Assembly: GCA_036004685.1 (NCBI GenBank)
Contig: DASYRE010000060.1
Span: forward strand, 1 to 50,131
From: Candidatus Polarisedimenticolia bacterium
Lineage (GTDB): Bacteria; Acidobacteriota; Polarisedimenticolia; Gp22-AA2; AA152
DNA length: 50,131 nucleotides
Reading direction: 5' to 3'
Part shown: positions 1 through 13,470 of the stretch, in pieces
Position numbering within the stretch: the first letter of the stretch is position 1
How the letters are laid out: every line of letters starts with the position of its first letter
Notes under the pieces: model-generated
What the model saw: only the letters and a program-made list of their open reading frames with translations
Told to the model about the DNA's origin: nothing
The model's database searches: none
Program-made: the position numbers and the translations under genes

Positions 1-121
1 TCGCCCGCTTGGCTCGAAGCGAGATCATCAACACGATCTTGACGGATAGGACTCATCGGAACTCCGAGATCATGCTGGAGAGAAGAAAAACTCTCTCAAA
101 TCGCTATTTTTCCGCAGCCTG
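1..121 (+). mobile_element. IS5-family element, right end only
   Basis: These bases match, with a few substitutions, the tail that follows the transposase stop codon at 4439-4575, and also the reverse complement of 49996-50131. The element ends in TCCGCAGCCTG at position 121 and is followed by CTAA, which fits the YTAR target duplication of the IS5 subgroup. The transposase body must lie to the left of the window. The IS sits directly against the stop codon of the neighbouring DUF3024 gene. Confidence 0.8.
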
Positions 122-468
122 CTAACCGAAGAAGCACGAAAACTTGTCCTCCTTCACCGTCTTCAGGAACAGCTTAAGCGTGCCCACCGCTTTGACCGGC
201 TCGTATGAATGCCACTTTAAGTCTGCTCTCTGCCAATAAATCCTCCAAACCCCCAGCCGCTTGTTCCATGTGGCCTTGGCAATTGCGTCCTCATGCCTTT
301 CATTCGGACGCTGAAATGCCGGTCGAATCTCAAACAACTCAACGCTTGTCCCATAATGCGATAACCGAGATCCAGCTTTGACCTGATGTGCACAGGTGGA
401 CGGTTCGCCTCCAGCCACGCATTCAGAACACGCTTGTTTTGTGCGATCTCTATATCAGTAAAAGCCAT
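122..468 (-). pseudogene. DUF3024-family protein, frameshifted
   Basis: Two overlapping frames together give one DUF3024 protein of about 115 residues. The first frame (start 468) supplies the N-terminus ending DLGYRI. The second supplies VELFEIRP, the tryptophan-rich core WNKRLGVWRIYWQRADLKWH and the family's closing CFFG. The family normally reads GQSVE at the join. The DNA near 346-347 has AA where AAA would restore the frame, so a single-base deletion is the simplest explanation. Function of the family is unknown. It is the cassette furthest from the attI-like site, and its stop codon abuts the terminal IS5 copy, so no attC is left for it. The frameshift could be true decay or a sequencing error. 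Confidence 0.75.
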
Positions 469-479
469 TTTCTTCTGGC

Positions 480-636
480 ACCTAACGACGCGTATAAGCT
501 GCGGCGGGAACCTGACCCGAAACCGCGCAACGAAGCCCGAGACCGAGAAGAAACAACGGCGGCATCGAAAGGAACACCAACACCACTTCAGAAGAAGTGT
601 GCCTATTGACGGCCGGGGGCCTTATAAGAGTTAGCC
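480..636 (-). repeat. putative long attC recombination site
   Basis: On the plus strand the segment opens with ACCTAAC (480-486) and closes with GTTAGCC (630-636), the reverse-complement order of attC core sites for minus-strand cassettes. GTTAGCC overlaps the stop codon of the Mrr-like gene. An inner CGTATAAGCTGCGGCGGG resembles one arm of the other attC sites in this window. The matching second arm is poor, and at 157 bp the site is longer than usual, so it may be a fused or decayed site. Confidence 0.5.
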
Positions 637-1418
637 AAACCCGTCGCTTCTCTCACCGAGATCAAATGGTTCTATATGATGGAGCTCTGCGAGGCTGCGG
701 AGCTCTTCAGTCCCTTCGATCACAGTGACGGCGCCTTCCTGAGCTTCCCGTCGTTGCTCACTCGTAAGGCGACCGGTCGTAACGAAGATGGCTGAACCGA
801 CTCGGCGAGCGAAGCAACCCGCTAGAAACTTCAGCCATTCGGTCTGAGTTGGAGCGTTATTCGTTTGGTGCAGCTTCACCTGCACGCCAATGTTTCGTGG
901 TTCATCGCTCGCGTCGCCGATTCGCGAGCCGACGAAATCGAGGCCTCGCTCGGTGCTCTTGTGCACACCTGGTGGTACCAGGCGTAGTGAGGGTACGCCG
1001 AGCGAAGGAACCGGAGCACCCACTTCTCGAAGGCGGTTCCTTTCGCGGCGTTCGGTGGAACTCCCTCCTCGCTACCCGTGTCGACGTTGACGGCGACTTC
1101 CGATGCCTGGGGAGCTGATCCGGCGAACTCACGGCCTTCCGGGGTGACACGCCATCCGGGACGATTCTTGTCGTGTGGATAGACATAGCCCGCTTCGACC
1201 GCCACGCTATTCACGAAGAAGCGGAGGCTCGCGCGACCCTGGTCCGAAAGGGTGAAGCCGAGGGGGCGCACCTGTACTTCAAGGGCATCGTACAGGTCAG
1301 CCATCTGCGCTTCGCCGCTGCGCTCGATGATCCGTCTGAGCGCGACTCGGATCTGTTCGTCGCCGGAAAACCCAGCCTCGAACCCAGTTGCCTGTCGAAC
1401 TTGTTGGGTCGCCATCAT
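631..1418 (-). pseudogene. Mrr-like restriction endonuclease, frameshifted
   Basis: The N-terminal frame (start ATG at 1418) holds a winged-helix-like region and then AFEKWVLRFLRSAYPHYAWYHQ. The C-terminal frame holds GLDFVGSR...IGVQVKLH, that is the D...QxK core of the PD-(D/E)xK/Mrr nuclease fold, and ends at 631. Such proteins cut modified or foreign DNA (type IV-like restriction) in the cytoplasm; that role is known for the family and is not shown here. The two frames join near 968-969, where GG in place of GGG would explain a one-base deletion. The GTTAGCC core of a putative attC overlaps the stop codon, as expected for a gene cassette. Confidence 0.65.
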
Positions 1419-1426
1419 TCAGTTCA

Positions 1427-1515
1427 GGCTAACGGCCGCGGCTGAGCTGCGCCGCGCTGGTAAAAGAGCCATCCTACAGTTTACGCGCGGCGTCAGCTCC
1501 AGCCCCTAGTTAGGC
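1427..1515 (-). repeat. attC site
   Basis: Core-like GGCTAAC (1427-1433) and GTTAGGC (1509-1515) flank two complementary arms, GCGGCTGAGCTGCGCCGCGC and GCGCGGCGTCAGCTCC, separated by a loop. This is the imperfect inverted repeat of an attC (59-be). It lies downstream of the DHFR-like gene and upstream of the Mrr-like gene on the minus strand, where a cassette boundary is expected. Confidence 0.85.
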
Positions 1516-1602
1516 AGCGCGAATTCGCATGCTAAGTACGACACGCCAAGCGACCGCTGGCGGCCCGATGTAGAAGGAACGACGACCTGGGAATCATAGA
1601 CT

Positions 1603-2168
<566 letters not shown>

Positions 2169-2184
2169 TATGTGCTCCTGAAGC

Positions 2185-2257
2185 GGGCAACGCTCCGCTG
2201 CAACCGGTTGTTATGCGCCAATGAATGAACGTATTCGGCTCCAAGCCGAAGTTATAC
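2185..2257 (-). repeat. degenerate or chimeric attC
   Basis: GTTATAC (2251-2257) overlaps the stop codon of the upstream cassette gene. It is preceded by CGGCTCCAAGCC, the same half-arm seen in the attC sites at 5241 and 5788. A second core-like GTTATGC lies at 2210-2216, with an unrelated arm, CGCTCCGCTGCAACCGG. The two halves do not pair, so this looks like a site assembled from two attC types or decayed. A short perfect hairpin, TTCGGCTCCAAGCCGAA, lies inside it. Confidence 0.45.
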
Positions 2258-2787
2258 GCCGGCGTCGCCGGCTTCCGGATACCACCATCCGAAAAACTCC
2301 TCAACAGCCTTTGGGCCAAGCTCGAGCACGGCTTCGGCGAGGCGCGTTTGACCCCGCGAGACCAAGAGTGCGGCTGCGGCCGCCTGACCAAACACATGAT
2401 CCCAGGCGTAGCGACTTTGCCGATGCACGGCATCCGCAAGAAGTGAGATTGCTTTCACGTAGCCACCTACCAAATCTTCAGGTATAGGCAGTGCATTCCT
2501 GCTGCCCTGGCGGTGAACCTCAACAGACGCAGGAAACGCAAAGAAATGCCAAGCGCACGGGCCGTCGACTGCCAGCGCGATTCGAACGATATGAGGGACC
2601 GTGGCATAACACGCGTCATACACGGTGCCTTGATGATGAACGGTGCCCCATAAGAACTCCCACGTCTCCTCATCTGCGTGGTGCGGAGCTCGTTCCAGTA
2701 CTCGGAGATATCTGGCACATCGCTCGCGATGCCAAATGCATGGTGTAGTTCAACCCACCGGCCGCTGCTCAGTGACAGGACTTCCAT
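2252..2787 (-). pseudogene. cassette gene of unknown function, frameshifted
   Basis: The likely start is ATG 2787 (MEVLSLSSGRWVELHHAFG). A second frame continues EFLWGTVHHQGTVYDACYA, then TVPHIVRIA, and ends at 2252 in FGWWYP. I recall the LWG.hHQG.VY.A.YA.P pattern from uncharacterised, often HEAT-like, bacterial proteins, but I cannot assign a function. The frames join near 2674-2676, where one missing base (CAG for CAGG) would restore TQDEETWEFLWG. The stop codon overlaps an attC core. The start lies just downstream of the attC at 2799-2884, leaving almost no leader, as is usual for cassettes. Confidence 0.6.
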
Positions 2788-2798
2788 TGCTCCTCGTG

Positions 2799-2884
2799 CG
2801 TATAAAGCTGCGGCGTGCGAGCGGCGGCGGTTCTTGCCGTGTGAGCGCGTGCCGCACGCCGGCAGCTTAATTCGCATGTTATAC
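2799..2884 (-). repeat. attC site
   Basis: The arms AGCTGCGGCGTGCGAGCG and CGTGCCGCACGCCGGCAGCT pair imperfectly around a GC-rich loop. The right core is GTTATAC (2878-2884); the left core is degenerate (GCGTATAA). The arms are close to those at 26227-26321 in the second array, so the two arrays share an attC subfamily. It ends the DUF6883/DUF4926 cassette. Confidence 0.8.
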
Positions 2885-2897
2885 GCCGTGCTCTCGT

Positions 2898-3131
2898 TCA
2901 GGCCGTACGGGTGAGCGGACGTACAGCAACGAGATCGGAGTCAGAGATTGGACGGACGTCTGAGAATTTGAGCGTAACGAGAGCAGTTGTGCGGCCAGAC
3001 GCTGTCACGAACTCGACTTCGAGGCCATCAGGCGGGTAGAGCTCAACCACGGCGCCAAGATCTCCAGCCTTAAGTCCATGAGCAGGGAGGTCCCGGATAA
3101 GAACAACGGTGTCGAGCGCTTGGTAGTCCAT
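2898..3131 (-). CDS. DUF4926 domain protein
   Basis: This 77-residue protein fits DUF4926 along its whole length: TVVLIRDLP..GLKAGDLGAVVE, then YPPDGLEVEFVTASG and the closing SDVRP region, which together look like a small SH3-like beta barrel. It starts two bases after the stop of the DUF6883 gene, so the two are almost certainly cotranscribed in one two-gene cassette. DUF4926 and DUF6883 genes are often neighbours, and the pair is suspected, not proven, to act as a toxin-antitoxin-like module. The frame is intact, unlike the four cassettes beyond it. Confidence 0.75.
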   Translation of the reverse strand: MDYQALDTVVLIRDLPAHGLKAGDLGAVVELYPPDGLEVEFVTASGRTTALVTLKFSDVRPISDSDLVAVRPLTRTA

Positions 3132-3133
3132 GG

Positions 3134-3466
3134 CTACCTCGGGAAAACCGTCACGAGTCGCGGGGGTGCCCCAGGGGTTGGAAGAATCCAGACCGTTGTA
3201 ACCTCCAAGGCAATTCCGCTCGGTCCTCTAAGAATACCCGAAATCGAGTATTTCTGGCCATATTCGCTGGCTTCGCCCAGGATAGCTTCTCCATTCCGAG
3301 CCCGGTCCAGAATGGCGGACCTCAGATCGACCCAGTTCGCAGCGTCGAAGCCCGCCCGGGCGAGGAATGCGGCTTTGAAACGGCCGATGGGGTGGGACTT
3401 CGATAACAGATATTCTCGAACCTTCCGCTCGTCGACGATAGCCCGCTCTGCGTTTGGAAGTTTCAT
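3134..3466 (-). CDS. DUF6883 domain protein
   Basis: The 110-residue protein begins MKLPNAERAIVDERKVREYL, then SHPIGRFKAAFLARAGF, and ends LVTVFPR, which is the DUF6883 pattern (helical start, central GRFKA.FF, then a beta-rich half with TVWIL). Function is unknown. The proline- and glycine-rich C-terminal half and the usual link with DUF4926 suggest a small cytoplasmic partner pair. It is the first gene of a two-gene cassette bounded by attC sites 3500-3593 and 2799-2884. The start codon ATG 3466 is the only sensible one. Confidence 0.75.
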   Translation of the reverse strand: MKLPNAERAIVDERKVREYLLSKSHPIGRFKAAFLARAGFDAANWVDLRSAILDRARNGEAILGEASEYGQKYSISGILRGPSGIALEVTTVWILPTPGAPPRLVTVFPR

Positions 3467-3499
3467 GACCCTTCAGCTTCTCTCAGTGCCATCCAGTGC

Positions 3500-3593
3500 G
3501 TATAACGTTCCGGCTAAGCTGCGGCGCGCGTGCTCAGCCACTCAATCCGGCACCGACCTCTCGCGCGCCGCCAGCTTCAGCCGGTTGTTAGCC
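3500..3593 (-). repeat. attC site
   Basis: GTATAAC (3500-3506) and GTTAGCC (3587-3593) bound the arms GCTAAGCTGCGGCGCGCG and CGCGCGCCGCCAGCTTCAGC, which pair well across a 35-base variable loop. The right core overlaps the stop codon of the truncated cassette gene at 3588. Confidence 0.88.
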
Positions 3594-3757
3594 GGAGCGG
3601 TCCGCCTCACGTACGCCAACGAAACCCTCAGTCGTCACGTCGAACTTCGAGAACCCTAATTCGACCATCGCGCGTTGGAGCGTTGGGGTTAACTCTGTTC
3701 CGTACACTTCCACTTCGCTCCACGGTGGGATGTGCGAATACTCGCCATGATGGAGAT
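3588..3757 (-). pseudogene. C-terminal remnant of a cassette gene cut by IS5
   Basis: A minus-strand frame open from the IS junction reads GDLHHGEYSHIPPWSEVEVY, then GTELTPTLQRAMVELGFSKF, and stops at 3588 inside an attC core. About 56 residues remain. Upstream (higher coordinates) the sequence changes abruptly to IS5 transposase near 3757. The family is not recognised. The piece shows that the IS, or the deletion that removed the IS left end, destroyed the 5' part of this cassette. Confidence 0.6.
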
Positions 3758-4438
3758 CGCCGGCTTCTCTCGGATGAGCACTTCACGGTGGATGGGACGC
3801 TGGTGGAGGCTTGGGCCGGCCACAAGAGCTTCAAGCCGAAGGACGAGGCTGCGAGGAAGCCGCCGGAGGATCCGGGGAATCCGACGGTGGACTTCACCGG
3901 GCAGAAGCGCTCGAACAAGACCCATGCGTCGACGACCGATAAGGACGCTCTTCTTTATCGCAAATCCTTTGGGACCGAATCGAAGCTGTGCTTCGCGGGC
4001 CACCTCTTGATGGACAATCGGCACGGCTTGGCGGTGGACGTCGAGCTGACCCAGGCCACGGGCCTCTCGGAGCGCGAAGCGGCCCTGAGAATGGCGGGAA
4101 GGATTGGCGGCTTCCAGCGGGTGACCCTGGGCGCGGACAAGGCGTTCGACGTTCGCGAGTTCGTTGGCACGCTCCGGGTAATGAAGGTGACGCCTCACAT
4201 TGCCGGGAAGAATGCGAGCTACAGCGCCATCGATGGAAGAACGAAACGATTTGCTGGGTACGTCTTGAGCCAGAGGAAGCGCAAGCGAGTCGAAGAGATC
4301 TTCGGTTGGCTTAAGACCGTCGCGCTGCTGCGGAAGACGCGGCACCGGGGCCTGGCGCGTGTCGGCTGGATGTTCACCTTCGCCACGGCCATCTACAACT
4401 TGGTTCGAATGAAAAACCTGGCGGCGGCAACCGGATGA
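3758..4438 (+). pseudogene. IS5-family transposase, N-terminally truncated
   Basis: The frame reads LLSDEHFTVDGTLVEAWAGH, a middle LGADKAFDVREFV, and RKRVEEIFGWLKT near the end, giving the D, D and E of the DDE catalytic triad. The usual N-terminal helical domain is absent. The open frame upstream of 3758 belongs to unrelated cassette and attC sequence, so the protein cannot start normally and should not be active by itself. It would be mobilisable only by a full copy, which the contig-end IS fragments imply exists nearby. Confidence 0.85.
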
Positions 4439-4575
4439 AGTCGTCCGCGACGCCTCGCCCGCTTGGATCGAAGCGAGATCATCAACACGATCTTGATGGA
4501 TAGAACCCATCGGGACTCCGAGATCAGGCTGGAGAGAAGAGGAACTCTCTCAAATCGCTATTTTTCCGCAGCCTG
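3758..4575 (+). mobile_element. IS5-family element, 5'-truncated
   Basis: The right end matches 1-121 and the reverse complement of 49996-50131, finishing in CCGCAGCCTG at 4575 and followed by TTAG, a YTAR-type target. The left end, with its inverted repeat and the N-terminal third of the transposase, is missing: homology starts abruptly near 3758. It is inserted in the cassette array, opposite in orientation to the cassette genes. The adjoining TTAGGC resembles an attC core site. Confidence 0.8.
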
Positions 4576-4586
4576 TTAGGCACCCG

Positions 4587-5183
4587 TTAACCCCCTGCGA
4601 CCCATTCGAAGACACCCAGAACCCGGCCATCATTCGCGTCGATTAGGACACTTCTACCATCGGCCCCGTACTTACTTTCGTGAAGGGTATTCGACACGCC
4701 CCATACATAGCCGAATTGGCGATTCCAAGTAAAACCCACACTCCATGGCTTGATGCCGGGCTCCAAGCCGGCCTTCCCAGAAACCTCGCGCGCAGTAGCG
4801 TCATTGTAGGGAAAAACGCATTCAAGTGGACTGGCGATGCACGGTGGCACGCCAGACAAGTCTGAGACTTTGCCGTCAGGATCGACAACGCAACTAATGA
4901 CTTCGTCAACGAAGTGGGTTTCGGGCATGCGGAATTTGAACGTTACCATGCAGTAAGGTCGCTGCATATACTCGGCACAGGCTTCCGGGTGCTCGATGCA
5001 ATGGGCAGACGGTGGAAAGTACTTTGCACTTTGCGGACTGATGTACTTCCCATAGAAGTCAGAGCCTACCAGTGCGATGATCGCCTGACTAGCGGGCACG
5101 TAGACTTGGCCACATTCCGGCTCACCACCCCAGATCATTCCCACAAGCATTAGCGGGAGTGCCACGAAGCTAAGGAATCGCAT
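4587..5183 (-). CDS. secreted cassette protein of unknown function
   Basis: I chose the start at 5183 because it opens with a signal peptide (MRFLSFVALPLMLVGMIWGG). The longer frame upstream runs through the attC site at 5241-5304. The mature protein of about 180 residues is cysteine-rich (CGQVYVPASQ, CIEHPEACAEY, CVVDPDGKV, PPCIASPLECVF) and should form disulfides outside the cytoplasm. No family is recognised. It is the third cassette from the attI-like site and is intact. The IS5 copy lies 11 bases beyond its stop and has removed or split its own attC. Confidence 0.65.
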   Translation of the reverse strand: MRFLSFVALPLMLVGMIWGGEPECGQVYVPASQAIIALVGSDFYGKYISPQSAKYFPPSAHCIEHPEACAEYMQRPYCMVTFKFRMPETHFVDEVISCVVDPDGKVSDLSGVPPCIASPLECVFPYNDATAREVSGKAGLEPGIKPWSVGFTWNRQFGYVWGVSNTLHESKYGADGRSVLIDANDGRVLGVFEWVAGG

Positions 5184-5240
5184 GGACGTTTTTGGCCTAC
5201 AAGCAGATGCAGACACCTTGCCGTTTGCTCCTTCGGGTGT

Positions 5241-5304
5241 GCCTAACCGATGCGGGTTGAGCCGCGGCCAGCTTTTGGCCGTCGGCTCCAAGCCGAGGTT
5301 AGCC
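5241..5304 (-). repeat. attC site
   Basis: A compact 64-bp site runs from GCCTAAC (5241-5247) to GTTAGCC (5298-5304), with the arms GGTTGAGCCGCGGCC and GGCCGTCGGCTCC around a TTTT-containing loop. It is almost identical to the next site at 5788-5850. It follows the membrane-protein cassette. Confidence 0.92.
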
Positions 5305-5315
5305 GGCCGTTCGCT

Positions 5316-5762
5316 TCAACCGCGATATTCACTGACCAAGATCCCTACCATTACTATAGCGAGGAGAGGAAGCCACGAGGTGATGAAGTGCAGTGCAACC
5401 TGCTCCTCTGGCTCAAAGTAGGGATTGTAGGTTGTCGTGAAACTCGTACTGTGCCAGACCGCGAACAAGAGCGCCATACCAATGCCTGCGACGAGGCTAT
5501 ACCGCAGCAACTTCCTGCCCCACGACGGGAGCTGACTGCGGCGGAGTTTTTCCAGGAAGAGCTGTGTGGACAGAGCCAGTAGTAAAAGAATCAGCAGGCC
5601 CGGTAATTTGAAGTAGATGAATTGCCAAACTTGGAATCCGACCCCGTTCGCGTACGACTCGGGTGTCTCAGGCAGGGCAAGTTTGGTGCTGACGGTCGCG
5701 TATCCATAGCCAACCGTTAACACGGCCCAGAATAGTACCGTCAACAGCATTGCCCTCGACAT
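5316..5762 (-). CDS. small integral membrane cassette protein
   Basis: The 148-residue protein has about four predicted membrane spans: LLTVLFWAVLTVGYGYA (residues 6-22), LPGLLILLLLALSTQLFL (53-70), YSLVAGIGMALLFAVW (88-103) and LPLLAIVMVGILV (131-143). A basic stretch, KLRRSQLPSWGRKLLR, sits between the second and third. No enzymatic motif is seen and the family is not recognised. It is the second cassette from the attI-like site and is flanked by two nearly identical attC sites, which suggests both cassettes came from one source array. Confidence 0.7.
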   Translation of the reverse strand: MSRAMLLTVLFWAVLTVGYGYATVSTKLALPETPESYANGVGFQVWQFIYFKLPGLLILLLLALSTQLFLEKLRRSQLPSWGRKLLRYSLVAGIGMALLFAVWHSTSFTTTYNPYFEPEEQVALHFITSWLPLLAIVMVGILVSEYRG

Positions 5763-5787
5763 AATCCCTATCTCGATTTCCAGGTCC

Positions 5788-5850
5788 GGCTAACGATGCG
5801 GGTTGAGCCGCGGCGCGCTTTTCGCCGTCGGCTCCAAGCCGGGGTTAGCG
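5788..5850 (-). repeat. attC site
   Basis: GGCTAAC (5788-5794) and GTTAGCG (5844-5850) enclose GGTTGAGCCGCGGCGCGC and CGCCGTCGGCTCCAAGCC. Apart from a few loop bases it matches the site at 5241-5304. The right core contains the stop codon of the first cassette gene. Confidence 0.92.
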
Positions 5851-6315
5851 GGCACGTTCACCCTTCCACGCGACGACAAGAGGGTCCTTGGCCCACGTTG
5901 CGTCATACCTTCCCTCAGCCGTGCAATTGTCCCTGCTCGCGATCGGTAGCAAACTCCAGACATGTGGTGGGATCGTTGGCTCGCCCTTGACCCTTACCGC
6001 TCGGCCGGCAGATTGGACAGTAAGAAACAACCAGAAGACGAATAGCGGATTTGGCTCCCCACCGTGGACAAAATCCATCCAGCCTTCGGCCTGAACCTCA
6101 CCTGCCGTGTTGAGCACCCGTACTCCAGAAAGACTCTCCAGCATCGCATCGGCAAGACTCGTACAGTGACCTTCCTGACAGGATTGAGACCAGTCAATGG
6201 CGAGACCGGAGGGGGTGAGCCCATAGGGCAGCAGGTCATTGAGAAGCTGGCGCTCCACTTCTGACCTCAAATCAGGCCCCATCCGCTCGACTTCATAGGA
6301 CAATGCTCGGTCCAT
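5845..6315 (-). CDS. first-cassette protein of unknown function
   Basis: A 156-residue soluble protein with no signal peptide. Recognisable stretches are an acidic start, EVERMGPDLRSEVERQLLN, and a central GYxFVHGGEPNPLFVFWLF-like segment at about residues 83-98, which may be buried or membrane-associated. No family is assigned. It is the cassette next to the attI-like site. The start ATG 6315 lies only 11 bases from the core site GTTAGCG, with no clear ribosome-binding site, so expression must depend on a promoter inside the leader at 6337-6508. Its stop codon overlaps the attC core at 5844-5850. Confidence 0.65.
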   Translation of the reverse strand: MDRALSYEVERMGPDLRSEVERQLLNDLLPYGLTPSGLAIDWSQSCQEGHCTSLADAMLESLSGVRVLNTAGEVQAEGWMDFVHGGEPNPLFVFWLFLTVQSAGRAVRVKGEPTIPPHVWSLLPIASRDNCTAEGRYDATWAKDPLVVAWKGERAR

Positions 6316-6325
6316 GACAATGTCC

Positions 6326-6508
6326 CGCTAACTAGCTTTGTGCCGATCCCCATTATTTGATAGGGCGGCGGGAATGGCGAGAATAAAAAATAGTGCTGCG
6401 AGGGAGCGTTTCGGAAAGCCGCCTGAATGCAACGCGATAGAGCGCGCGCGACCGGTTTCGGGGACGACTTTTCGCCGAAATAGACTGACCTGTACGAAAA
6501 AATATGGC
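6326..6508 (-). other. attI-like site and conserved leader, copy 1
   Basis: The core CGCTAAC/GTTAGCG lies at 6326-6332. Upstream of it on the minus strand is a leader (6337-6508) repeated at 28043-28215. The blocks shared by the two copies, on the plus strand, are TTTGTGCCGATCCCCATTAT, ATAAAAAATAGTGCTGC and CTGACCTGTACGAAAAAATA. Each copy stands at the same place: at the head of a cassette array and directly beyond the 3' end, or deletion scar, of intI. That is the position of attI and the cassette promoter. I could not point to a convincing -35/-10 pair in it. Confidence 0.7.
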
Positions 6509-6529
6509 TGCGAGCGGCGGGCTGGGGAG

Positions 6530-6700
6530 TCATGGCTTGACCTCTCCGGTGGGTGACGTCGGCGGGCACCCGAGCCGGTCCATCGGGCTGCGGACCGCGG
6601 CGGGTCCGCGGTTGAGGACGTGGGTGTAGATCATCGTGGTGCTCACGTCTTTATGTCCGAGGAGCTCCTGCACGGTCCGGATGTCGTAGCCGTCCTCGAG
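6530..6700 (-). pseudogene. intI: integron integrase, C-terminal fragment
   Basis: The last 56 residues of an integron integrase remain: [20 protein letters not shown] and [12 protein letters not shown], followed by the VRSPMD tail. The histidine of LLGHKDV and the tyrosine nucleophile of YTHV are present. The matching N-terminal part, with the arginine and lysine of the active site, is at 11125-12033 on the same strand, and the break falls inside the ATHLL/LEDGYD junction of the family. The stop codon lies about 20 bp from the leader of array 1. It is therefore one half of an interrupted intI, not a separate gene. Confidence 0.9.
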
Positions 6701-6754
6701 TCGCTTTATCGCTGCCGGATGGTCCAAAACGTGACACCCATGCGCATCGATCAC

Positions 6755-7165
6755 CTATCGTTTGCGCGGGACGGACCTGACCTTGAGCCGGACACCTCCT
6801 GGGAATGCCCAGTGGCGATAGGCCTCGATCCATTCGGCACCTCCAGGTGGCGGGAAAGGCAGTGGCATGTCGAGGATGGGGATGGCCTGCCGGCTCCTGC
6901 CTCGGCGGCAGATTGCGACGATCTCGTCAGCCTGCGTGAGGTCGATCCGCTCCACAGTAACCGTCACTCCCAGCACCAAGGTCTCGAACGGCAGCCCCAG
7001 GTTGTCTTCCAACATCGTCAGGAACCCCGTCTTCTGCTCAGATTCACCATAGGCGTCGACGGTGGCTTCTTTGACGAGCTTTTCTAAGAGAATCTTTTTT
7101 GGTGGCCAGCGACGATCTCCTTTCTCAGAGGCTCGTCGTCCTTTCCTTATACGATTTCGCGTCAT
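6755..7165 (-). CDS. small acidic/basic partner protein of the primase-helicase
   Basis: I chose the start ATG 7165 because it overlaps the helicase stop codon as ATGA, which implies translational coupling. The longer frame, starting at 7198, has no support. The 136-residue protein has a basic N-terminus (TRNRIRKGRRASEKGDRRW). It then reads VDAYGESEQKTGFLTMLEDN, LPFETLVLGVTVTVERIDL and EIVAICRRGRSRQAIPI, and ends GAEWIEAYRHW. Related short proteins are often labelled calcium-binding, but I see no EF-hand. Its role is probably tied to the upstream gene. Confidence 0.6.
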   Translation of the reverse strand: MTRNRIRKGRRASEKGDRRWPPKKILLEKLVKEATVDAYGESEQKTGFLTMLEDNLGLPFETLVLGVTVTVERIDLTQADEIVAICRRGRSRQAIPILDMPLPFPPPGGAEWIEAYRHWAFPGGVRLKVRSVPRKR

Positions 7166-9681
7166 GGGCCTTCTCCCCCCAGGTCGTCGAAGTGACAAGG
7201 AGCCTTCTCGTCATATTCGACGTGGGGTTCGTCGACAGGGTCCGAATAGTTGGAGGGCGGCTCGCCGCGCACATAACCGAGGGCCCGGTATGCTCGCAGC
7301 CGCTTCTCGAACATGCGCCGCAGCACAGGCACCGAACCGTCGACATAATCGAAAATACGCACGGTTGTCTTCCCGGGGCGGATCCGATGCAGGCGACCTG
7401 CGTACTGTGCCAGCGTTCCCTTCCACGAGATTGGCATAGCAAGGAAAAGAGTATCGAGTCTGATGTCGTCGAACCCTTCACCGATGTACCGCCCGGTCGC
7501 AAGGATAAGTCGCTCCTCGTCCTCCGGTATTTCGGCGAGCTGGGTGACGAGCTTCTGCCGCTGCTTGGGGGTTCCACCACCTCGGAGCACGATAAGGTTG
7601 CGGACGAAGCCACGCAGCTTCGCCGCGAAATAATCGAGGTGATCACGCCTCTCGGTCAGCAGGACCGGAGACGCCCCAAGTTCGACAGCCCGAATCACGT
7701 CGTCGAGGACGAGGCGGTTGCGCTGCTCATCGGCCGCCAGAGCCCCGTAAATGTCTTGAATCCCGACCTCATTCGGCACTGCTTTCAGCCAAAAGCTTGT
7801 CTCACGAACGACGAGCTCATATTTGAACAGTTGCCTCGCAGCGGGGCTCTTCGCTTCCACGCAAAAACGTGCGGGTCCGAGCTGCATCTCCAGAATCGGG
7901 TGATGACCGTCGCGGCGATTCGGCGTCGCTGTGAGCCCCAGGACGTATCGTGCCTTGACCTCCGAAAGAACACGCTCGAACGACACAGCCGGGACATGGT
8001 GGCACTCGTCCACGATGACATGTCCGTAGGTGGCGACGATATCGTCGACGTGTTCCCCACGGACCAGACTCTGAATCATCGCCACATCCAAGATACTGTT
8101 GGCATTGCGTTTCCCGCCTCCAATCTGTCCCACTTCCTTCTCGTCGACGCCTAGAAAGGCTGAAATCTGGGCAACCCACTGGTCGAGCAGCGGCCTCCGG
8201 TGAACGAGGATGAGGGTGCTGCGACCCCGTTGAGCGATCAGGTGAGCCCCGAGAACGGTCTTCCCGATCCCGGGGGGTCCGACGAATACGCCGATGTCGT
8301 GGGGAAGGAGTGCCTTTGCTGCGCGCTCCTGGAGCGGTGTGAGCTCGCCGCGAAACTGGAAGCATAATGGTTGGCCCTCGTGACGCTGATCATCGAGCGA
8401 GAGCTTGATGTCATACCTTTTCAGGAGCCCCTCGACCGCGCTGCGGCAGCCGCGTGGCAACGCAATGTGGCGCGGCAACTCCTGGGCGCAGGAGATTACG
8501 CGCGGCGTCTTCGCGATCGAAAGTCGCATCGACTGCCTTCTGTAGAACTCAGGGTTTTGGAAGGCGGCAAGGCGCTTGATCTCGTTGAGCAACGGTGACG
8601 GGACGGCATCCTTGTCGATAAAAAGCCGCTGGGCGAGGACGGCGTTCACTTCGCTTGGCAGCGGCCCGGGAATGGACGAGCGGCCGGAATTGCCCATTGG
8701 CAACTGCCTGCGTGGTTCGGTCCCCTCATCATCCATAGGTTCGGCAATCCTCACACCTACGACCGCATCCCGACGCTCAGCCTCCCGCGCGATCGCCTCG
8801 ACCCCTTCAGGTTCAAGCCTCGGGACCGCCGCGAGGTAGGCCCATTGATCGAGGTAAGGCTCGAACCCCGCATCGAGGAAGACGGTATTCCCGCGTCGGC
8901 GAGCTTCATACTGAAGGGGCAGGGCGATGAGGTTCCCGAAGCCCCCATGTGGCATTGTGTCCTGGTTTGGGAAGAGCCGGTCGTATGAATCCATGCTGAG
9001 CTGGTGTCGACGGGCCATTGTCTCGGTGAGAAGGTGGGATCCCATTTTCCGGGCGAGGGCCGACGGGATGGGGGATGCAAAAAAGAACCAGGCGTGGGCA
9101 CCATTGCCCGACCGGGATCGCTCCAGGGAACAAGGAACTCCCATGATTCGGCAGGTTTCGATGAAACTGGCCACATCTTCCTTCCAAGAAGCCTTGTCGA
9201 AATCGACAGCAAGAAACCAGCATGTAGCGTCGCGGAGCAGTGGGTACACTCCCATTACATGGCGACCCCGGAGGTGACCCAGAACGACCTGGTCGTTTAC
9301 GGAGAGGAAGGCTTGGTTCGGACACTCCCCGCATCGGATTTTGGGAAGCTCGCAAACACCCTTCACGAACTTGTTCGCGCACGCGGGCGCATAGCCCGAC
9401 TGGCCACTTTTCTTGCTTAGGAAGCGGGTTGGGAAGACATCGTCACGCCCGCGAAAGAGGGATCGGAAAAGCGCCACCTTCTCCACAGCTGAGATCGGAC
9501 CCGAAGGGCGATTCACGGCCGAAACGTGGCTGCCCGGAACCTGGAGACGGATGGTGGCCTCCAGCTCGCGTCGTAGTGCCTTCAGACGCTCACAAGATTC
9601 TTTTCGTTCAGAATTGAGTTTAGCGAGGCGGCCCTCTTCCTGGGCGATGAGCGAGAGCAGATCCGCCCTCGTGGACTTCAT
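7162..9681 (-). CDS. archaeo-eukaryotic primase / SF2 helicase fusion (TOTE conflict type)
   Basis: This 839-residue protein starts with a coiled coil (about 10-45). A primase domain of the AEP superfamily follows: a cysteine cluster (CANKFVKGVCELPKIRCGEC, 101-120), the metal-binding DFD (160-162) and GAHAW (195-199). The C-terminal half is an SF2 helicase/translocase with Walker A GPPGIGKT (468-475), DECH (558-561), TATPN (584-588) and motif VI QYAGRLHRIRP. The primase domain is the one I know as the TOTE conflict-system primase, found in mobile systems thought to act against invading DNA. That role is inference. No nuclease domain is visible in the protein itself. It is the centre of the island that splits intI and is coupled to the downstream small gene. 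Confidence 0.82.
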   Translation of the reverse strand: MKSTRADLLSLIAQEEGRLAKLNSERKESCERLKALRRELEATIRLQVPGSHVSAVNRPSGPISAVEKVALFRSLFRGRDDVFPTRFLSKKSGQSGYAPACANKFVKGVCELPKIRCGECPNQAFLSVNDQVVLGHLRGRHVMGVYPLLRDATCWFLAVDFDKASWKEDVASFIETCRIMGVPCSLERSRSGNGAHAWFFFASPIPSALARKMGSHLLTETMARRHQLSMDSYDRLFPNQDTMPHGGFGNLIALPLQYEARRRGNTVFLDAGFEPYLDQWAYLAAVPRLEPEGVEAIAREAERRDAVVGVRIAEPMDDEGTEPRRQLPMGNSGRSSIPGPLPSEVNAVLAQRLFIDKDAVPSPLLNEIKRLAAFQNPEFYRRQSMRLSIAKTPRVISCAQELPRHIALPRGCRSAVEGLLKRYDIKLSLDDQRHEGQPLCFQFRGELTPLQERAAKALLPHDIGVFVGPPGIGKTVLGAHLIAQRGRSTLILVHRRPLLDQWVAQISAFLGVDEKEVGQIGGGKRNANSILDVAMIQSLVRGEHVDDIVATYGHVIVDECHHVPAVSFERVLSEVKARYVLGLTATPNRRDGHHPILEMQLGPARFCVEAKSPAARQLFKYELVVRETSFWLKAVPNEVGIQDIYGALAADEQRNRLVLDDVIRAVELGASPVLLTERRDHLDYFAAKLRGFVRNLIVLRGGGTPKQRQKLVTQLAEIPEDEERLILATGRYIGEGFDDIRLDTLFLAMPISWKGTLAQYAGRLHRIRPGKTTVRIFDYVDGSVPVLRRMFEKRLRAYRALGYVRGEPPSNYSDPVDEPHVEYDEKAPCHFDDLGGEGP

Positions 9682-9894
9682 TCGATTCCCATGCCGGTGC
9701 GACGATCCGGCTCCTATCGACTCGTGTCAGGAAGAGCGTGCGAAATGTCTCAGGGACGTACGTCCGGGGGCGTTCGTTCGCAGTCCGCCGGTCGCCTTCT
9801 CATGGTTTCAGCTTTCGCAGGAGCTTCATCTGCCAGTATCCAAGAAGGCAGTGCACCGACGGACATTCTAAAGGTGCATTTCCCAACGGGAGGA

Positions 9895-10278
9895 TTAAGT
9901 TGCGCCACCATCTCCGATCGGAAGTGGACGCACACGATGGCGACCCTCCTCGATCACGACGACGGCGCCCCTTCCCAGAGCTTCTGAACACTTGTCAAGA
10001 ACGACGGACAGGCGATCGATGACGTGTGCGGTGCGGGTGTTGTGGAGACGGAAAACCACCACGCTCACGGTGCGCCCGCGCGCAAGTGCCGCGATTTCGC
10101 CGAAGTCGAGATCGAAGGTAAGTACGATTCGACTCTCGGCAATCGCCTTCGCGAAGATTTCGCCGTTCGGAAGTCGGTGAAGACCCTCATCGCGGAGGTG
10201 AACCGGCTCGTGACCGTGTTCGCGAAGCCACGTAACGACGCGAACGTCCACACCCATATCCACAAGGAATCTCACCAT
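9895..10278 (-). CDS. DUF5615 PIN-like toxin candidate
   Basis: The 127-residue protein reads MVRFLVDMGVDVRVVTWLRE and later AKAIAESRIVLTFDLDFGEI. This is the DUF5615 (Mut7-C/PIN-like) pattern, with an early aspartate and a later D.DF pair that would bind metal in the ribonuclease fold. It lies 12 bp after a DUF433 gene, the usual antitoxin partner, so the two form a type II toxin-antitoxin pair by analogy. The C-terminal residues beyond about 110 (HRVRPLPIGDGG) are variable. Confidence 0.82.
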   Translation of the reverse strand: MVRFLVDMGVDVRVVTWLREHGHEPVHLRDEGLHRLPNGEIFAKAIAESRIVLTFDLDFGEIAALARGRTVSVVVFRLHNTRTAHVIDRLSVVLDKCSEALGRGAVVVIEEGRHRVRPLPIGDGGAT

Positions 10279-10290
10279 CTTCTCCGCTGT

Positions 10291-10512
10291 CTACTGGGTG
10301 ACGTGGACCTGCTCTTGAGCGAGCCATGCAGCGTATCCGAGAGCCTGCTGAATATCCTCGCGCTCAAGGTCCGGGTATCCGGCCAGGATTTCCTCGAAAG
10401 TGGCTCCATGGGCGATCTGCCCTACGATCACCGAAACGGGGATTCGCATCCCGCGGATGCACGCTCGCCCGCCCAGGATCTGAGGGTCGAAGGTGATCCG
10501 GTCGAACTCCAT
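10291..10512 (-). CDS. DUF433 antitoxin candidate
   Basis: The start ATG 10512 is fixed by AAAGGAGGT a few bases upstream; the longer frame to 10587 has no such site. The 73-residue protein reads FDRITFDPQILGGRACIRGM, then RIPVSVIVGQIAHGATFEEI and LAGYPDLEREDIQQAL. That is DUF433, a small HTH-like fold that serves as DNA-binding antitoxin to DUF5615 proteins. The pair is probably autoregulated at its own promoter upstream of 10512. Confidence 0.85.
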   Translation of the reverse strand: MEFDRITFDPQILGGRACIRGMRIPVSVIVGQIAHGATFEEILAGYPDLEREDIQQALGYAAWLAQEQVHVTQ

Positions 10513-10661
10513 CTTGGCACCTCCTTTGCTGCCTATACTAACCCTCTCCGCGGGTATTTCGCATCCCGCCGGTTCCTTCGTGTTCATAAGGCTCGGAAGC
10601 GAATTTCCGCGCCCTCGAATTTCGGGCGAGTGGCTATCATGCCGGGGCGCCCTGAACGCCG

Positions 10662-11117
10662 CTACTCAAGTTCCGATCGGACCGGCTTGGGAGATTTCCG
10701 TTCCAGGAACATTTTCACCTTTTCACGAAATCGCTTTGGGGGGCTCGTTGCCCCGGTTTCCCAACGGGCTATTGTGCAGCGATCCACGCCGATCAGAATG
10801 GCCAGCCGTTCCTGTGAAATCGCGAGGGATCTCCGGCAGGCAGTCAGCCTCTCGCCTAGGTCTTCAATCTTCTCAAGAGCCTGAACCCCCAGGAACTCGT
10901 TGAGCTTAGGCGCTACCCACCGCGCCGGAGCAATTCCACGACGCTCCCAGTTCTCCACGCTCTTCTTGTCGACGCCCAGCACCTTCGCCAGCTTCCTCTG
11001 ACTCAGCCCCAAGTCCATCCTGCGCTTCCGAATCCGGTCCCCAAGGGTCCTGACTTCACGAGGGTAGCCCGTCGGCAGCCGCTTCTGTCCCCGGAGGGTG
11101 ACATGGCAAAAAGGCAA
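10662..11117 (-). CDS. tandem XRE-type HTH regulator
   Basis: Two helix-turn-helix domains are visible: RTLGDRIRKRRMDLGLSQRK with LGVDKKSVENWE (about 23-60), and LGERLTACRRSLAISQERL with IGVDRCTIARWETG (about 87-122). The N-terminal CHVTLRGQKRLPTGYP segment is shared by many relatives, so the protein is nearly complete. However, its only upstream start is a TTG at 11117, very close to the island boundary, and the start may have been altered by the insertion. It overlaps the out-of-frame tail of the intI fragment. It probably controls the conflict genes of the island. Confidence 0.75.
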   Translation of the reverse strand: MPFCHVTLRGQKRLPTGYPREVRTLGDRIRKRRMDLGLSQRKLAKVLGVDKKSVENWERRGIAPARWVAPKLNEFLGVQALEKIEDLGERLTACRRSLAISQERLAILIGVDRCTIARWETGATSPPKRFREKVKMFLERKSPKPVRSELE

Positions 11118-12033
11118 CGCCTTGCAGCAGATGGGTCGCGAAGGAATGCCGGAAGGTGTGGCAGCTGGCGGGCTTGGTGATCCCGGCCCGGCGGACGGCC
11201 TTGAAGACCTCCCGCTGGATCGCCGATTCGTGGAAGTGATGGCGCCGGACCTGCCGGGCCCGCGGTTCCGCGTACCGCCGCGAGGCGGGGAAGACCCATT
11301 GCCAGCTCCAGTCCCGGCCGGCCTGGGGATATTTCCGCCCCAGGGCCTCGGGTAGCTCGACCCAGCCGGCGCCGAGCAGGAGATCGGCTTGATGCTGTGA
11401 CCGGACGAACTCCAGGTGCCGCCTCAGCCTCTCCTGCGCGATGGCGGGGAGCAGCGTCACGCGATCCTTGTTCCCCTTGCCGCGCCGCACGATGATCTGG
11501 CTGGCACCGAAGTCGACGTCCTTGATCCTCAGGCGCAGAGCCTCGGTCAACCTCAACCCGCCGCCATAGAGCAGCGTCACGACCAGCCAGGGGATTCCGC
11601 CGAGATGCCCGAGGATCGCCCGCACTTCGTCGCGGGCGAGGACCGTTGGAAGCCGCCGGGGCCCGCGGGCCCGGACGAACCCTTCCAGCCAGGCGAGGTC
11701 GCGGCGCAGCACCGTGCCGTAAAGGAACAGAAGCGCGCATAGCGCCTGGTTCTGGGTCGAGGACGCCACTTTGTGGTGAATGGCGAGGCTGGTCAGGAAA
11801 CGGGTCACTTCCTCCTGGCCGAGCGGGGAGGGATGGCGCTTGCCGTGGAAGAGGATGAACCGCCGGATCCAGCCGACGTAGGCCTCCTCGGTCCGGGGGC
11901 TGTAATGCTCGGCGCGCAGGCGCCTGCGGACTTCGTCGAGGAACCTCGGTTTGTCCGCGGAGGGCCGCGAGTCGGGAGTGATGACCAGGGGCATCGGCAC
12001 GGTGGTGTCGGGGGAGTCGAGATGGGCGATCAT
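11056..12033 (-). pseudogene. intI: integron integrase, N-terminal fragment
   Basis: Starting at ATG 12033 (MIAHLDSPD), the frame follows an integron-type tyrosine recombinase for about 303 residues. It has the core-binding domain (about 30-125), the active-site arginine in GGGLRLTEAL (R161), the lysines of GKGNKDRV, the extra IntI segment with LPEALGRKYP and WSWQWVFP (about 226-270), and HTFRHSFATHLL (292-303). Homology stops at about 11125. The remaining residues to 11056 (VAFLPCHPPG...) are island sequence. The missing end, with the catalytic tyrosine, is at 6530-6700. The fragment alone cannot be active. A conserved promoter lies upstream at 12088-12116. Confidence 0.9.
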
Positions 12034-12040
12034 TCGAACC

Positions 12041-12120
12041 CCCGGGGAAATGGCTCTCCTGGCTCGGAATGGGGGCGCGTTGGTGAAACTATACGCCGCC
12101 GGAGGCTTTGGCGCAAGGAC
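12041..12120 (-). promoter_or_regulatory. intI promoter region (Pint), copy 1
   Basis: On the minus strand, TTGCGC (12116-12111) and TATAGT (12093-12088) are spaced by 17 bases, about 55 bp upstream of the intI start. The surrounding 80 bp (GGCTCTCCTG, CTCGGA, GAAACTATA, CAAGG) recur at 28250-28330. This shows that the second array once had the same integrase promoter. Confidence 0.7.
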
Positions 12121-12220
12121 GGGTCGGACGCCCACGGCGGCGAACGCGGGGGATAAGCCGCACCCGAGCCTGGCCAATTAGGGCGATGCGCGTCGAAGAA
12201 GGGGCCCGCCGCGTTCGCCG

Positions 12221-12910
12221 TCAGTGAGTCTCGGTCGAGCCCCACAGCTCCTTCAACCGCTGGTCGCGGCCGCAGGAGAATCGATAGAACTTGTAGCGGA
12301 CGGGGTTCTTCATGTAGTAGTCCTGATGATAATCCTCGGCGGGATAGAAGGCCGTGGCTTGAACGATCTCGGTGACCAGCGGCTGCTTGAAGCGCCCACT
12401 GCTCTCCAGCTCCTTCTTCGATTCCTCCGCGAGCCTCTTCTGCTCGTCGTTGTGATAGAAGATTTCGCTGCGGTATTGCTCTCCGACGTCGCAGAACTGG
12501 CGGCCCTTCGCCAGCGGGTCGACGTTGTGCCAGAACACCTCCAGGAGCTTTCGATAGCCGACCTTGGCGGGATCGAAGAGAACCTGGAGCGCTTCGGCGT
12601 GACCGGTCGTCCCGGACGAGACTTGCTCGTAGGTGGGGTTTACGGTGCGCCCGCCCGTGTATCCCGAGGTCGTGGAGATTACGCCGTCGATCTTGTCGAA
12701 GGGCGGCTCCATGCACCAGAAACACCCGCCCGCGAATGTGGCGGTTTCGTATTTGTCCATCGGTTTTCCTTTCGCGTCTTGTCCGACGGCTTGGTTGCCT
12801 CCGCATCCGGCTAGAGCCAGCAGGGCCAGGATCGCGGCGAAGCGCCCTACCCTCGTTTTCATGCTCGGGTTCGCGGCGCTGGCGGCCGCATGGCAGCGCT
12901 TCATCGTCAC
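12221..12910 (-). CDS. msrA: peptide methionine sulfoxide reductase A, lipoprotein form
   Basis: MsrA reduces the S-epimer of methionine sulfoxide. The catalytic GCFWC lies in ATFAGGCFWCMEPPF. Further landmarks are GYTGG, a GHAEAL box and the YHQDYY C-terminal signature. The N-terminus holds a lipoprotein signal (AAILALLALAGCGG), so the enzyme is probably anchored in the periplasm. The GTG at 12910 overlaps the msrB stop codon, which implies coupling; ATG 12904 or ATG 12862 are alternative starts, the last beginning directly at the signal peptide. It forms an operon with msrB for repair of oxidised envelope proteins. Confidence 0.93.
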   Translation of the reverse strand: MTMKRCHAAASAANPSMKTRVGRFAAILALLALAGCGGNQAVGQDAKGKPMDKYETATFAGGCFWCMEPPFDKIDGVISTTSGYTGGRTVNPTYEQVSSGTTGHAEALQVLFDPAKVGYRKLLEVFWHNVDPLAKGRQFCDVGEQYRSEIFYHNDEQKRLAEESKKELESSGRFKQPLVTEIVQATAFYPAEDYHQDYYMKNPVRYKFYRFSCGRDQRLKELWGSTETH

Positions 12911-13470
12911 GTCCTGAGCGCCGGCAGCGGCGTCCCCTCGGGCGCGAACTCCAGCGCGACGCCGTTGTTGCAGTACCGCAGCCCGGTGGGTGCGGGGCCG
13001 TCGTTGAAGACGTGTCCCTGATGGCCGCCGCAGCGGATGCAGTGGTACTCGGTCCGCGGCAAGAACAGCTTGAAGTCCCGCCTCGTTCCGATGTGCCCTT
13101 CAAGCGGCCGGAAGAAGCTTGGCCAGCCGGTGCCGCTGTCGAACTTGGCCTCCGAGCTGAACAGGGGAAGGCGGCAGGCCGCGCAAAGAAACGTGCCGTG
13201 GTGCTTCTCCTCGTTCAAGGGGCTCGTGAAGGCCCGCTCGGTCGACTCCTCGAACAGGACGGCGTACTGCTGCGGCGTGAGGAGCTTCCGCCACTCCGCC
13301 AAAGGCTTGCTCAGCTTCTCGATCTTTCCCGCCGATTCGCTCTTCTCTCCCGATTTCTCGGGCATTTTCGCGCCCTCCTTTCCGAAGTCGGACGCCGGGA
13401 AGAGAAGCCATCCCAGCGCCGCGGCCATCCCGCCATGAACGAACTCCCTGCGTCGCATCGCACCTCTCAT
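12907..13470 (-). CDS. msrB: peptide methionine-R-sulfoxide reductase B
   Basis: MsrB reduces the R-epimer of methionine sulfoxide. The structural zinc is bound by CAAC and CIRCGGHQGHVF. FDSGTGWPSF and the catalytic cysteine in RYCNNGVALEF are all present. An N-terminal MRRREFVHGGMAAALGWLLF segment looks like a Tat or other export signal, matching the lipoprotein signal of the neighbouring msrA. The two genes overlap by four bases. The protein is 187 residues long, including about 60 residues of signal and linker before the domain. Confidence 0.93.
   Translation of the reverse strand: MRGAMRRREFVHGGMAAALGWLLFPASDFGKEGAKMPEKSGEKSESAGKIEKLSKPLAEWRKLLTPQQYAVLFEESTERAFTSPLNEEKHHGTFLCAACRLPLFSSEAKFDSGTGWPSFFRPLEGHIGTRRDFKLFLPRTEYHCIRCGGHQGHVFNDGPAPTGLRYCNNGVALEFAPEGTPLPALRT

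Follow-up and report, generated by a model that had tools for sequence, protein, structure and literature searches.

How an integron integrase gene came to lie in two pieces, with several kilobases of other genes between them, and what kind of DNA parted it, are the questions raised by this locus. The window analysed here is the entire contig C60 of genome G000 (50,131 bp), and in it inserted DNA has cut a single integron integrase gene (intI) in two while removing almost none of its sequence. The N-terminal part occupies positions 11128-12030 of the minus strand (301 codons, ending ..SFATHL(L); TIGR02249, E 3.8e-108, profile positions 1-272 of 315), and its reading frame continues for 22 codons inside the inserted ‘island’ before reaching a stop. 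The C-terminal part, at 6530-6700 on the same strand, contains both LLGHKDV and, within YTHV, the catalytic tyrosine, and extends to the very end of the profile (315 of 315). The open reading frame to which it belongs (6530-6754) matches TIGR02249 over positions 260-315 (E 7.6e-24); the genuine intI sequence begins at the L|EDGYD junction, such that the match to positions 260-272 is made by sequence from the end of the island.

Each junction falls at a crossover dinucleotide, CT, found at 11126-11127 on the N side of intI and at 6699-6700 on its C side (both minus strand), with 4,427 bp separating the two crossover points; beyond this common CT, no target-site duplication was found at the junctions. 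Joining the two parts at CT yields a 357-amino-acid product, which can be aligned without a break across the junction to the IntI proteins of all 22 relatives compared, at 56-64% identity (22 of the 23 loci L006-L028 were kept after a length and motif filter); between them, the two parts match TIGR02249 from its first position to its last, with the IntI-specific segment and the catalytic tyrosine included. An earlier note, made from the letters of this DNA, had placed the fragments here, both on the same strand, and had called them complementary parts broken between ATHLL and EDGYD with near-zero loss; the profile matches and the alignment of the joined product (such a join had been that note's proposed check) bear this out. 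It had also allowed that relatives might carry two independent recombinase genes instead; the THLLE motif is, however, uninterrupted in 23 of the 25 intI loci inspected, the exceptions being G000 itself and G002; among the 23, L007 and L015 have the motif but diverge further on. A genome-wide search of G000 found no second full-length IntI, and we rejected the three further matches, which span 53-83 residues with E-values of 2.7e-6 or worse, as too weak to supply IntI activity. Finally, the same island, which the earlier note had suggested looking for in related genomes, is present at the same codon of the intI of G002 (QHVQ01000093.1, an Acidobacteria MAG of the same family and another genus); there the island (A) abuts a second element (B), the far end of A meeting the left end of B at another CT.

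The island has five genes, all on the minus strand. At the end facing the N-terminal part of intI sits a double-HTH gene (10662-11117; HTH_31, E 2.5e-16, in two stretches), followed by a DUF433 gene (10291-10587; PF04255, E 5.4e-25), a DUF5615 gene (9895-10278; PF18480, E 1.3e-22), an 839-amino-acid primase-helicase combining AEP-TOTE and ResIII/DEAD helicase domains (7162-9681; PF22548, E 2.2e-95), and a 147-amino-acid gene with a weak resemblance to calcium-binding CcbP (6755-7198; PF11535, E 1.8e-4). Pfam thus recovers everything that the earlier note had named (the TOTE-type primase-helicase, the DUF433/DUF5615 pair and the double HTH) and adds the CcbP-like gene, which is about 92% identical in DNA in G002. 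By its domain match, the large protein is the AEP-TOTE primase-helicase that marks the TOTE conflict system; its best PADLOC match is PrimPol (E 2.1e-88), and it has matches on 302 plasmid records and, at E 1e-60, in 19 of 149 relatives. We take DUF433 to be the likely antitoxin-like partner of DUF5615, itself a possible PIN-like toxin, and our guess is that the pair and the primase-helicase are cargo, concerned with replication or maintenance. A related primase-helicase followed by a CcbP-like gene also occurs outside intI, in L054 (G007:C35, 4949-9635), where it is preceded by a pair that is AbiE-like by reading. No Rfam family was matched at the gathering threshold. The description of the locus as a defence-like island lodged in an integrase has survived in part: the insertion stands, but a site-specific integrative element fits better than a defence island, given kin of the island in comM and the links to large serine recombinases (LSRs) described below.

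In our view the island probably belongs to the site-specific integrative elements of the LSR kind, or is an LSR-less derivative of one, with the conserved THLL|E codons in intI as its attachment site. Our reasons are the precise CT junctions, a half-site held in common with LSR elements in comM, and independent entries into intI. The half-site is best seen at the HTH end of the island, where an attP-like sequence with one mismatch to TGYGTTGCCYTTTTGC lies at 11106-11121 (minus strand), four bases from the core; it overlaps the HTH gene, whose TTG start codon falls inside it. Among the 100,230 16-mers of the window, this is the only one with three or fewer mismatches to TGYGTTGCCYTTTTGC. At the same distance of 4 nt from the core, the HTH ends of A and B in G002 also have one mismatch each, and that of a comM element in G270 has none; inverted, and with equal spacing, the motif recurs at the LSR ends of the comM elements of G270, G348 and G312 (two, three and one mismatches, respectively). 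When eight loci were scanned for the motif, four of the six matches fell at element ends and two did not.

Homologues of the HTH protein are found in 9 of 297 genomes of the phylum, G000 included. Thirteen HTH ends could be examined, comprising 11 places from the phylum search together with L081 and L082 (L080 and L083 duplicate the records of G002 and G010). Three adjoin intI and five adjoin comM (G041, G303, G064, contig C45 of G270, and L082), one is that of element B behind A, three adjoin other sequence (contig C382 of G270, G174 and G010), and the last, in G284, stands at a contig end. The half-site is present with 0-3 mismatches at 12 of the 13, the remaining one being cut by a contig end. 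In four of the five comM cases, comM and the HTH gene are oppositely oriented. In G270, an LSR (Resolvase and Recombinase domains) comes after the N-terminal half of comM, the last letters of which are ..AATCCATG, and the C-terminal half, preceded by the HTH gene, starts ATGCCAG, so that ATG is common to both; the halves are on separate contigs, each being the sole such match in G270. LSRs 69% identical to this one follow the N-terminal half of comM in G348 and G312, and only 7 of 396 genomes have a match to it at E 1e-25. The core in comM is TG, as against CT in intI; this difference and the placing of the G270 halves on two contigs both count against the LSR reading.

A Pfam search of the island proteins found no recombinase gene, and hence no LSR with its resolvase and recombinase domains; we likewise saw no LSR beside most of the HTH-ended elements, for which contig breaks are one likely reason, nor any element in intI that carries one. 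PF07508 is matched in 5 of the 11 genomes searched (mostly HTH carriers): G002 has no such match, and the only one in G000 is an LSR fragment at the start of contig C5, with one side beyond the contig end. An LSR in G304 was considered as a partner for intI and set aside, as it is not adjacent to intI on its 4.2 kb contig; in the phylum of G304, 4 of 95 genomes have HTH matches and only G304 has the half-site pattern. Plasmid and phage collections gave no HTH match, and viral contigs gave no relative of the primase-helicase and a single HTH match, which is weak and 30 residues long.

In a different account, the island was inserted by some other enzyme supplied in trans, such as a transposase or a tyrosine recombinase, and the motif simply reflects how conserved the HTH protein is at its start. 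In favour of this, the island lacks an enzyme of its own, its far end lacks the motif, and at HTH ends the half-site also encodes the conserved start of that protein (ALPFC). Moreover, tyrosine recombinases do enter this gene: in G066 and G345, intI is split at HTLRH|SFAT, about seven codons upstream of THLL|E, by elements carrying three tandem tyrosine recombinases (about 2106-5559 in L174, G066:C35, and about 1585-4978 in L192, G345:C127; confirmed by Pfam in G066 and by reading in G345), which we take to be examples of the ‘recombinase in trio’. Like the island, these split intI within its conserved catalytic region, but they do so at another site, bring their own three recombinases on board, and have different, palindromic ends (CTATGCCG/CGGCATAG). 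The motif, for its part, occurs with the same 4-nt spacing at the LSR ends of three comM elements, ends that carry no HTH gene; there it does fall within coding sequence, in the 3' part of the LSR gene, and common coding is therefore no explanation for its presence at both kinds of end. We regard insertion by such an enzyme as unlikely.

That the island entered different intI genes independently is shown by comparison of G000 with G002. The two loci align across 5,256 bp, and 26 of 30 island blocks of 150 bp are 88-98% identical (the remaining four being 77, 82, 87 and 87%), with a fall to 68-73% DNA identity in the next five 150-bp blocks, which lie within intI. It might be argued that a single insertion in the common ancestor of the two genomes was inherited vertically and that the island has since evolved more slowly than intI, as the two agree in both codon and gene order; yet third-codon differences amount to 12% for the CcbP-like gene, 13% for the primase-helicase, 23% for DUF5615, 1% for DUF433 and 15% for HTH, as against 50% for intI, with a step at the boundary, and comM is only 69.9% identical in DNA between the genomes, all of which makes vertical descent very improbable. 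Because most island blocks are 88-98% identical, where intI and comM stand at around 70%, the divergence indicates that the island is more recent than the split of the two genera and that it entered the intI genes of G000 and G002 separately. A contig from Rokuibacteriota (L081) adds a third instance of the cut at the same codon: here, 72 residues of IntI that share 50% identity with residues 230-301 of the N-terminal part (E 1.3e-18) break off at SFKTRL, where an HTH gene of the same kind adjoins them.

At its far end (6701-6736, minus strand), the island has no half-site. There are 11 mismatches at the expected offset, against one at the HTH end, so inverted attP half-sites do not flank it and it is not a complete LSR element. 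What this stretch does contain is 13 residues in frame with the C-terminal part of intI that are weakly intI-like, and are also aligned by TIGR02249. Scored against a motif derived from intact sites (66 unique 36-mers, with Xer recombinases included besides IntI), the far end ranks in the top 0.6% of window 36-mers for G000 and the top 0.2% for G002, with log-odds that are nonetheless negative (-35 and -29 bits, compared with +53 for a real site), so that the resemblance is suggestive only. On one reading, and a weak one, the far end might serve as an attB-like half into which B could insert behind A. The left ends of A and B in G002 are 77-78% identical over 126-127 bp, and the difference between the two copies at around 23% of sites led us to reject an assembly overlap as the cause of the repeat. 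The G002 contig stops at element B, and no C-terminal part of intI was found in that genome, the matches at E 2.3e-7 and 3.3e-6 being other recombinases.

Beyond the C-terminal part of intI lies a cassette array, within which the contig starts. The best three of the eight attC-like candidates listed are minus-strand hairpins at 5788-5850, 5241-5304 and 1427-1515; further array repeats are found at about 2235, 2858 and 3567, and three of the array proteins have no NCBIfam match. A repeat pair of 124 bp (1-124 and 4455-4578) is 93% identical, and the copy at the contig end is probably the reason that the assembly stops there. The cassette genes and intI are on one strand, which therefore puts the array beyond the 3' end of intI, the less usual arrangement. 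Although the island is neighbour to this array and its hairpins, the notion that it is itself one or more large gene cassettes, put by the integron into its own integrase gene, is scarcely credible, since its junctions are CT rather than G|TT and the eight attC-like candidates listed for 1-13000 all lie away from the island ends.

Returning to the LSR-type element, we suggest the following sequence of events. A related LSR would have crossed over at CT in intI, and may have come from the lost end of the element, from a partner element (B of G002, for example) or from some other source, with the HTH protein as a possible regulator of integration or excision. Insertion would take the catalytic tyrosine off the main IntI product, and this truncated protein, lacking that residue, is therefore unlikely to be active. 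The integron's integrase could then no longer shuffle the cassette array, which, it is reasonable to infer, the split has left frozen. More tentatively, and with rather less conviction, we speculate that this could be one member of a lineage of serine-recombinase-type elements specialised on intI, which use the start of the HTH gene as a half-site, carry a primase-helicase and a toxin-antitoxin-like pair, and present an attB-like far end for stacking; taken with the three-recombinase elements, intI might then be a recurrent hotspot, and such insertions a route to fixed arrays.

How does this compare with what has been published? Durrant et al. 2022 (PMC10083194) describe LSR targeting of a Mg-chelatase-like gene, which we here identify as comM; the word ‘integron’ is absent from the main text of that paper. 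The island resembles published LSR elements in its insertion at a conserved codon, its two-base core, its related half-site and HTH end, and its kinship with elements that target gene-transfer genes; it differs in that the target is intI, in the lack of an LSR, and in having only one recognisable half-site. Titles and abstract openings in the literature on serine recombinases with intI, comM or competence, a set that leaves most subscription papers outside, contain no report of intI as an LSR target, and the same is true of those in which comM is paired with an integron integrase. Loss of intI from an integron that itself persists is familiar: in the portions of the two papers used here, 43% of integrase genes seemed inactivated (Cambray 2011, PMC3108266) and inactivation of intI1 restored fitness (Starikova 2012, PMC3510236). 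The causes given in those portions are frameshifts, nonsense mutations and laboratory insertions, whereas here it is probably a site-specific element. If an element does repeatedly enter intI at one codon, it would be a separate cause of integrase inactivity beside the point mutations treated there, and possibly a reversible one, because precise excision could restore the gene. A recombinase gene would also join the gene-transfer genes (comM, competence genes) as a landing site for serine recombinases, and a concrete half-site and target are now at hand for testing.

The C-terminal part of intI has matches in at least 139 of 396 genomes of the phylum. We fetched 20 intI regions, picked mostly for short open frames; apart from the three-recombinase elements, and a C-terminal part with the same kind of end near position 466 of L178 (G294:C66), these contain whole motifs, frameshifts or fragments. 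Several further arrangements were seen around comM. In L076 (G303:C22, 2834-3876), a C-terminal part of comM lies between two pieces of HTH gene, perhaps as a result of stacked elements, and an apparently whole comM is present on another contig of G303. Fragments of comM occupy both ends of the 5 kb contig L078 (G064:C85, 1-174 and 4808-5002), as though the element were tandem or circular. Lastly, in L109 (G284:C27, 6813-8396) a second large serine recombinase lies next to a fragment of comM, at a different point of the gene (before LEDGE).
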